From an uncultured Bacteroidota bacterium (GTDB taxonomy: Bacteria; Bacteroidota; Bacteroidia; Chitinophagales; Chitinophagaceae): a stretch of DNA of 32,474 bases. Below, piece after piece: positions 1 through 1,559 of the stretch (positions within the stretch are counted from its first letter, which is position 1; each line of letters opens with the position of its first letter). Where the stretch lies: contig CALFNL010000151.1 of NCBI GenBank assembly GCA_937902875.1, forward strand, positions 1 through 32,474, written 5' to 3'. Below the pieces are notes generated by a model. It worked only from the letters and a program-made list of their open reading frames with translations. It had not been told where the DNA came from and made no database searches. The position numbers and the translations under genes are program-made.

Positions 1-358
1 TCCCGATACCGATGCTTTTTCGCCAGCATCGGATCCCCGGCATGGTTTCAACAAAAATCGTATCCTGCAGCTGGGCCTGGTGGAATTTGTAAATGTTCGC
101 GTATGCCTGGGCGATAGCGGCTTTCAATCCATCACCCAACCGCGAACCCGAATCATTTATTTCCGCCTGTGAAACCGCGGCATCATGGATATCCACCCCG
201 TCAAATTGCCTGGTGAATTTCCTCAAAGCGCCGTCGCCGTTTCCCTTCACTTCCTCCAGAATCAGTTTCACTTTTTCTTCAAGTGAAGTAGCATCAAATG
301 AAGGTCGCTTCAATATGGCACTCCATTCAGTCCGTTCAGGATATTTGATCAACTGCAT
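1..358 (-). CDS. hisD: Histidinol dehydrogenase, N-terminal part (runs off window start)
   Basis: Minus-strand translation MQLIKYPERTEWSAILKRPSFDA...VETMPGIRCWRKSIGIG resembles the HisD N-terminus; lies directly downstream of hisG. Confidence 0.9.
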   Translation of the reverse strand, partial: MQLIKYPERTEWSAILKRPSFDATSLEEKVKLILEEVKGNGDGALRKFTRQFDGVDIHDAAVSQAEINDSGSRLGDGLKAAIAQAYANIYKFHQAQLQDTIFVETMPGIRCWRKSIGIG

Positions 359-454: not shown

Positions 455-1309
455 TCAAATAACCATTTTTTCAATAGGAACTACCAGTATGCCCTGGGCG
501 CCGGCCGCTTTCAGTTGTTCTATTTTGTCCCAGAATTCATCTTCACTAAGCACGCTGTGCACGGAACTCCAGCCCTCTTCGGCCAAAGGCAATACAGTGG
601 GGCTTTTCATGCCCGGCAGGAGGCCAATGATCTCTTTCAATTTTGCGTTGGGCGCATTCAGGAGCACATACTTGTTGTTCCCTGCCTTCTTCACGGCCCT
701 TATGCGGAAAAGTAATTTGTCGAGCAGTCTCTGTTGCTCACTATTGAATTTCCTGTGCCTGATAAGGATCGCCTGTGATTGCAATATGGTTTCCACTTCC
801 TTTAGCCCGTTGGTCAGCAGCGTTGAACCACTGCTCACCAGGTCACAGATCGCATCGGAAAGGCCTATTCCCGGCGCTATTTCCACGGAGCCGCTGATTT
901 CATGAATTTCAGCATTGATATGGTTTTTCTCCAGGAATTGCCGCACCAATGAGGGATAGCTGGTGGCGATCCTCTTTCCTTCAAGGAATTGCACATCCTC
1001 ATAATGATCGCCTCTGGCAACGGCAAGGCTCAAACGACAACGGGCAAATCCCAGCATATCCACTACCTCCACAGATTTATTTTTCTCATACACCACGTTT
1101 TCGCCCACTATGCCAATATCAGCCACGGCGTCTTCCACGTATTGAGGGATATCATCGTCCCTGAGAAAAAATACTTCCAGGGGAAAATTGACCGCTTCCG
1201 TTTTGAGCTTATTCACTCCATTGGAGATATCTATCCCGCATTCCTGCAGGAGCTTCATGGAATCTTCGTGTAAACGACCCGATTTTTGAATGGCCAATTT
1301 TAATTTCAT
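455..1309 (-). CDS. hisG: ATP phosphoribosyltransferase; start probably at 1309 (MKLKLAIQKSGRL) rather than 1339
   Basis: ORF with HisG-like N-terminus (LAIQKSGRLHEDS), DIGIVGENV, SGSTLLTNGL; adjacent hisD. Confidence 0.93.
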   Translation of the reverse strand: MKLKLAIQKSGRLHEDSMKLLQECGIDISNGVNKLKTEAVNFPLEVFFLRDDDIPQYVEDAVADIGIVGENVVYEKNKSVEVVDMLGFARCRLSLAVARGDHYEDVQFLEGKRIATSYPSLVRQFLEKNHINAEIHEISGSVEIAPGIGLSDAICDLVSSGSTLLTNGLKEVETILQSQAILIRHRKFNSEQQRLLDKLLFRIRAVKKAGNNKYVLLNAPNAKLKEIIGLLPGMKSPTVLPLAEEGWSSVHSVLSEDEFWDKIEQLKAAGAQGILVVPIEKMVI

Positions 1310-1390
1310 GGCTGCTTTTTGAATTTGAAACAATTTCATTCCGCCTCACTGCCCGGAATCTTATCTCTTGGCTTGACCCAAATCTCCGGC

Positions 1391-1421
1391 AAAAAATTAG
1401 GGCCTACCTTATGGTAAGCCC
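1391..1421 (-). terminator. Intrinsic terminator of the his leader (attenuator)
   Basis: Minus strand GGGCTTACC-ATAA-GGTAGGCCC (9 bp stem, one G-U) followed by TAATTTTTT, upstream of hisG. Confidence 0.9.
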
Positions 1422-1459
1422 TCAGCATTTTGTATTATTTCGCACAAAACAACACCGGC

Positions 1460-1510
1460 CTACCCGTATGGTAAGATATGATGGTGATGATGATGTGCTA
1501 TTCTTATCAT
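1460..1510 (-). CDS. hisL: Histidine leader peptide MIRIAHHHHHHILPYG (16 aa, six consecutive His codons)
   Basis: Minus strand ATG ATA AGA ATA GCA CAT CAT CAT CAC CAT CAT ATC TTA CCA TAC GGG TAG, followed by alternative hairpins and a terminator before hisG. Confidence 0.92.
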   Translation of the reverse strand: MIRIAHHHHHHILPYG

Positions 1511-1526
1511 ATTCTAATTATTAGGG

Positions 1527-1559
1527 CAAAAATAGGCGCCAGCACTCAAATGAACAAAA
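1527..1559 (-). promoter_or_regulatory. Bacteroidota-type promoter for the his leader/operon
   Basis: Minus strand TTTTG-N20-TATTTTTG, matching TTTG-N17..23-TAnnTTTG; about 16 nt upstream of the leader ATG. Confidence 0.7.

Follow-up and report, generated by a model that had tools for sequence, protein, structure and literature searches.

A predicted histidine-sensing, ribosome-mediated attenuator upstream of hisG in Chitinophagaceae, with counterparts in other Bacteroidota

Results and Discussion

Organization of the hisG locus

The window analyzed here (the whole 32,474-nucleotide stretch of DNA) corresponds to contig C151 in a draft assembly of 3.8 Mb and 461 contigs. The nearest named relatives of this genome belong to the Chitinophagaceae, with Agriterribacter humi as the closest named species (HisG identity of 85%). 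On its minus strand the window encodes hisG (455..1339), a long-form ATP phosphoribosyltransferase with HisG_C-term (NCBIfam TIGR00070, 193.7 bits versus a cut-off of 75.75), and a partial hisD (2..358; NCBIfam TIGR00069, E 1e-17) that is ended by the contig edge. Because most homologue alignments begin only at query residue 8 to 13, the real start of hisG is probably the second ATG, at 1309, rather than that at 1339. The order on the minus strand is promoter, leader ORF, alternative stems, U-run, hisG and hisD. About 50 nt separate the end of the terminator from hisG, and the start region of hisG lies outside the terminator. The gene on the other side of the element is oriented divergently and encodes a 3-keto-disaccharide hydrolase-domain protein; thus, no other transcript ends at the hairpin, and no other gene needs a terminator at this position.

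Promoter and leader ORF

A Bacteroidota sigma-A promoter was recognized from its sequence and by comparison within the family. Its −33 element, TTTTG (1555..1559, minus strand), is separated by a spacer of 20 nt from the −7 element TATTTTTG (1527..1534, minus strand), which follows the consensus TAnnTTTG. TTG at the equivalent −33 spacing was found for 69 of 98 family leaders, and a −7 element of the TAnnTTTG type precedes 91 of the 98. In F. psychrophilum, TAnnTTTG is positioned at −12 to −5 and 5.5% of the mRNAs are leaderless (PMC9723704). With this placement, transcription in the window is predicted to start at 1522 (minus strand), and the leader would have a 5′ UTR of 12 nt, since 16 nt separate the last base of the −7 element from the ATG. 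The same distance ranges from 4 to 27 nt among the 91 family leaders and is exactly 4 nt in 20 of them, for which the placement predicts an AUG at +1.

The leader ORF (1460..1510, minus strand), identified from sequence and family conservation, encodes MIRIAHHHHHHILPYG in 16 codons. These read, from 1510 to 1460, ATG ATA AGA ATA GCA, six consecutive CAY codons for His (1495-1478), and ATC TTA CCA TAC GGG, followed by TAG.

Mutually exclusive stems and terminator in the window

Downstream of the His codons, the leader RNA can form three stems (1:2, 2:3 and 3:4) that are mutually exclusive. Region 1 (CTTACC, 1470..1475, minus strand) is the partner of region 2 (GGTAGGCC, 1457..1464, minus strand) in the least well supported of the three, and region 2 overlaps the stop codon of the leader. 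Region 3 (GGGCTTACC, 1413..1421, minus strand) is common to the antiterminator 2:3 and to the terminator 3:4. Region 4 (GGTAGGCCC, 1400..1408, minus strand) is the 3′ arm of the terminator; it was identified, like region 3, from the sequence and the family alignment. Directly 3′ of this hairpin lies TAATTTTTT, with its last base at 1391 and the U-run of the intrinsic terminator at 1391..1396 (minus strand). The promoter, the six-His leader ORF, regions 1 to 4 and the U-run had all been proposed in a first-pass annotation of this DNA, and each was found on the minus strand exactly where it had been placed, to the base. The 2:3 hairpin of that annotation had been drawn too short: an inner helix that lies between the two regions (1426..1450, minus strand), identified by folding and moderately supported by the alignment, pairs UUUUGU with ACAAAA plus neighbouring bases and extends 2:3 to −17.8 kcal/mol. 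By this estimate the antiterminator is level with the terminator 3:4 (−17.0 kcal/mol), and 1:2 with its outer helix reaches −16.3 kcal/mol.

The fold of the window leader was more stable than those of 197 of 200 dinucleotide shuffles (z −2.6), and the complementarity of 2:3 also exceeded that of shuffled sequence (p 0.01). The locus combines a short ORF rich in cognate codons with an intrinsic terminator before the first gene.

Folding as a function of ribosome position

Switching between the stems was simulated by folding only the ribosome-free RNA, beginning 13 nt beyond the start of the A-site codon. By this approach, alternative-structure folding recovered the switch with ribosome position that the first-pass annotation had led us to expect. 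When the A-site was placed on any of His1 to His6, the probability of 2:3 was about 0.98 once region 3 had emerged, and 2:3 persisted until most of region 4 was out (to 1402), at about 0.6 for His5 and His6. With the A-site anywhere from Pro to the stop codon, the probability of 2:3 was zero and that of 3:4 rose to 1. When the entire RNA was out and at equilibrium, 3:4 won at every ribosome position; thus, the outcome must be decided kinetically, as it is in other attenuators. In silico, then, an antiterminator exclusive of the terminator is governed by the position of the ribosome.

Conservation in Chitinophagaceae

A search of 200 genomes from the same family yielded HisG in 150, and about 500 nt upstream of hisG were examined in 104 family genomes, with two of these regions shortened by contig ends. 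The poly-His ORFs and stems that were to be looked for in relatives proved to be conserved upstream of hisG in Chitinophagaceae. An automatic scan gave His-run leader matches for about 98 of the 104 genomes, one of them (L056) apparently spurious and located in an inserted gene, with the true leader further upstream. In a second set of 80 named, mostly Chitinophagaceae, loci, which overlaps the family set, 76 carried the leader. A PDDEXK_3/GxxExxY gene is inserted before hisG in three of the family loci and four of the named loci without an adjacent leader (L241 and L347 are apparently one genome), and in every such locus our own covariance model detected the attenuator just upstream of the insertion at 99-117 bits. 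One further miss of the scan has a degenerate HHYYH run, yet scores 72 bits against the covariance model, and another is explained by a contig end. On the reverse strand, the background of His-run ORFs was 1 of 90, and for the wider set it was 5 of 80. Among the His codons of the leaders, CAT occurs 404 times and CAC 80 times, a mixture that is expected of a coding constraint and not of a repeat constraint. In several genera the leader ORF continues past region 2 and stops further downstream; the geometry with the stop in region 2 is not universal.

Terminators, located without any sequence motif, were found in 97 of the 98 family loci with a leader, and 3:4 was the best conserved of the stems. 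In alignment A1, which comprises 77 family leaders gathered with a terminator motif and therefore inflates conservation, 98.4% of cells were paired in 3:4 versus at most 64% in slid controls (0 of 500 shuffles as high), with both sides changed in 7 of 9 pairs; 2:3 was paired in 96.4% of cells versus at most 54% when slid, with both sides changed in 6 of 8 pairs, albeit in few cells; and 1:2 plus its outer helix was paired in 80% versus at most 49%. Stem 1:2 itself was paired in 82.6% of cells of the 77 family sequences, with weak covariation. Conserved stems with compensatory change are thus well documented for 3:4 and 2:3 and weakly for 1:2. Within the family there is hardly any variation in regions 2, 3 and 4, from which we infer a multi-way constraint, because a change in region 3 must suit both 2 and 4, and a change in region 2 both 1 and 3.

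A second, motif-free test of 2:3 located terminators by hairpin score alone and compared with shuffles how well the terminator 5′ arm pairs with the RNA that follows the last His codon and precedes the terminator. By this test, 77 of 97 family loci reached p≤0.05, with about 5 expected by chance, as did 10 of 14, 3 of 3, 2 of 2 and 2 of 2 loci in four other families. E. coli hisL, taken as a positive control, was not significant (p 0.33), probably owing to its different layout, so the test is without a positive control.

His leaders in other Bacteroidota lineages

His leaders also precede hisG elsewhere in the same order (f2, 5 of 5 loci), as well as in several other families of the class and phylum; the families are numbered here and not named (f5 resembles Flavobacteriaceae). 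Among 30 loci of the wider phylum the leader was absent from 12, and some of the matches, e.g., in f9 and f10, are doubtful. The stem sequences differ by clade: CTCARGCGA is found with CCCGTTTGA in f5, TGGCAGGTTTA with AAGGCTTGCC in f8, and AAGACGGA with ACCGTCT in f4. When the leader segments of each clade were combined with the terminator arms of every clade, the true assignment gave the best total, ranking 1 of 40,320 permutations of eight clades, two of which have almost identical arm sequences and several of which are small. This result is the strongest evidence that 2:3 pairing has been under selection. The other Bacteroidota clades retain the attenuator logic in different sequences.

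Two outside families depart from this arrangement. In f23 (L143-L147) and f3 (L121-L125), His-rich leaders lie before hisG and a convincing intrinsic terminator is missing in 9 of 10 loci. The f23 leaders average 8.6 His, and the base composition of the next 75 nt is 0.25 C and 0.07 G; such a C-rich, G-poor spacer suggests Rho-dependent release.

Proposed mechanism and alternative explanations

Family conservation, compensatory or coordinated changes and ribosome-position folding all agree in silico with the attenuation reading put forward in the first-pass annotation. The parts, their order, their conservation, their coordinated change and their thermodynamic switching are established by sequence and computation. 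From these data and the folding model we infer ribosome stalling, termination and a response to histidine at the hisG leader, and we hold it to be very probable that the element in the window controls the his operon by ribosome-mediated transcription attenuation, with charged tRNA-His as the signal sensed. Transcription would begin about 12 nt ahead of the 16-codon ORF with its six His codons. A shortage of His-tRNA would make the ribosome stall on these codons and leave region 2 free; free region 2, with the inner helix, would then pair with region 3 upon its emergence, which would block 3:4 and allow read-through into hisG. With ample His-tRNA, the ribosome would instead reach Pro-Tyr-Gly-stop and cover region 2, so that 3:4 terminates. 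If the leader is not translated, the first-transcribed stem, 1:2, should also favour termination.

Whether the element is specific for histidine was considered with a scan of 102 family upstream regions for short ORFs with at least 4 copies of one residue within seven codons. His was found in 88 of the 102 regions, Leu in 12, Ser in 9 and any other residue in at most 6 (a Met signal came solely from CAT runs read as their complement); the reverse strand gave His in 0 of 102. This strong enrichment of His alone at hisG argues against the leader ORF and terminator being a fixed brake on hisG, or one that senses translation in general (growth rate) and not histidine specifically. Any coupled leader ORF before a terminator does respond to translation generally, and some genera have only three His codons or the degenerate HHYYH run; however, other operons of the family carry the leader cognate to their own pathway, with Trp at trpE and Lys/Thr at asd, and we regard a non-specific brake as very unlikely.

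Still less probable is action at the level of translation or via Rho in place of intrinsic termination. The spacer composition of f23, behind a His-dense leader without an intrinsic terminator, would fit such a scheme, as would the missing terminators of most f3 loci. By contrast, the window and nearly all leader-bearing loci of the family have a hairpin with a U-run, no stem is better conserved than the terminator, and the terminator ends well before hisG and excludes the hisG start region. Finally, the notion that the His run reflects chance low complexity or a tag-like artefact, with the hairpin serving only as a passive terminator, for which nothing speaks beyond the ease of finding stem matches in a single sequence, was rejected as having almost no chance of being correct, given the conservation of the His run across the family (where it is near-universal, against its rarity on the reverse strand) and, with different sequences, in other families, together with a divergent upstream neighbour that leaves no other gene needing a terminator.

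Relation to known attenuators

The predicted His attenuator of the window resembles enterobacterial hisL in its short His-run leader ORF (E. coli MTRVQFKHHHHHHHPD), its terminator before hisG and its presumed logic of ribosome stalling. It differs from hisL in its very short 5′ UTR, its TAnnTTTG promoter and its unrelated stem sequences. The E. coli his attenuator is usually drawn with six segments; by contrast, the layout in the window has four and is trp-like (1:2, 2:3 and 3:4). In an Rfam search at gathering score of the window and 18 related loci, the sole match was the E. coli control. The His_leader model (RF00514) scored 17.1 bits on the window, below its gathering score of 49, compared to 131.6 for the E. 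coli control. Neither the Bacteroid-trp model (RF01692) nor the T-box riboswitch covariance model of Rfam matched in the window, and no Rfam family was found at gathering score for the his leaders or for the trp and asd leaders tried.

The Bacteroid-trp RNA, which as its name suggests is linked to trp genes and attenuation, differs from the window element in concerning trp and not his. An abstract of the attenuator survey of Vitreschak et al. (2004) reportedly mentions attenuators in some Bacteroidetes/Chlorobi. In the cited literature, Bacteroid-trp is a predicted cis-regulatory candidate in Bacteroidetes (PMC2864571), and sORFs reminiscent of leader peptides have been noted in B. thetaiotaomicron (PMC7366714). 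For F. psychrophilum, which shares the phylum (the f5 loci described here carry a Flavobacteriaceae-like His leader), strong clues to leader-peptide attenuation at amino-acid operons were reported, in a main text that contains neither a mention of histidine nor a description of the anatomy (PMC9723704). A 2021 study of his genes in the superphylum mentions attenuation for enterobacteria only (PMC8305728). A His-codon leader with terminator and antiterminator has been predicted in the Bacillus cereus group, Eubacteriales and Erysipelotrichales (PMC9413887; PMC2965389); these lie outside Proteobacteria, as the window element does, but are Firmicutes. According to the 2010 report, its own Firmicutes case was preceded by demonstrations of leader-peptide systems in Proteobacteria and Actinobacteria alone (PMC2965389).

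Within the literature searched, nothing specific to His attenuation in Bacteroidota was returned. The first-pass annotation had been unsure whether this version had been described in the lineage, and such caution was justified, as no account of the Chitinophagaceae His element was found in the literature searched. The attenuation mechanism is already known, and attenuation in the phylum is suspected; the new contribution is to demonstrate attenuation comparatively for his and to describe how widely it occurs and how the element is built. By this comparative evidence, classical His attenuation is predicted to be near-universal in Chitinophagaceae and widely recurrent in Bacteroidota, a phylum in which amino-acid regulation is poorly mapped and the his elements of which are missing from Rfam. 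The element also offers a setting in which to test attenuation against a background of few Shine-Dalgarno sequences and very short 5′ UTRs.

Leaders at asd and trpE

The his-leader covariance model matched the asd leader of the window's own genome at 37 bits. Upstream of asd, which encodes aspartate-semialdehyde dehydrogenase, lies a short ORF rich in Lys and Thr, MTMIKKHTKLTKKQLSPGEA, with a strong terminator behind it (L253:547-670, part of G000:C352:519-669). Leaders of the MK.TK.TKK or MK.TKRTKK type with a terminator precede asd in 15 of 20 loci scanned, and from its sequence the asd leader looks like a Lys/Thr attenuator. At trpE (L325, L315-L329), conserved WWW leader peptides with a terminator were found in 11 of 15 loci; that of the window's own genome is MKKILINNHWWWHTNSLRGL. 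Against the Rfam Trp_leader model, the trpE leaders of L325, L329 and L315 scored 28-31 bits, under the cut-off of 41.

A joint reading of these leaders, which we offer tentatively and consider possible though doubtful, is that a separate family of leader-peptide attenuators arose within Bacteroidota, independently of those in Proteobacteria; that in this family one four-segment scaffold, often on a leaderless mRNA, was codon-swapped (to His at hisG, to Lys/Thr at asd and to Trp at trpE); and that at least one lineage (f23) kept the His leader with its intrinsic terminator replaced by a Rho-like zone rich in C and poor in G. Parallel leaders with unrelated sequences allow one to ask whether attenuators arise repeatedly.

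Replacements and insertions upstream of hisG

In three family genomes (L090, L151 and L160), a Flavobacteriaceae-like his leader and terminator (QLHHHHFHT...; CCCGTYTGA arm) replaces the family type, and the sequences suggest that the whole hisG region may have been transferred. In six genomes (L345, L346, L347, L207, L221 and L248), a PDDEXK_3/GxxExxY segment of 480-570 bp lies between the U-run of the attenuator and hisG. It is bounded by inverted ends, GTCTGAAC...GTTCAGA, and its gene is apparently decayed in some of the six; the segment is possibly a small mobile element that favours the attenuator-hisG site.
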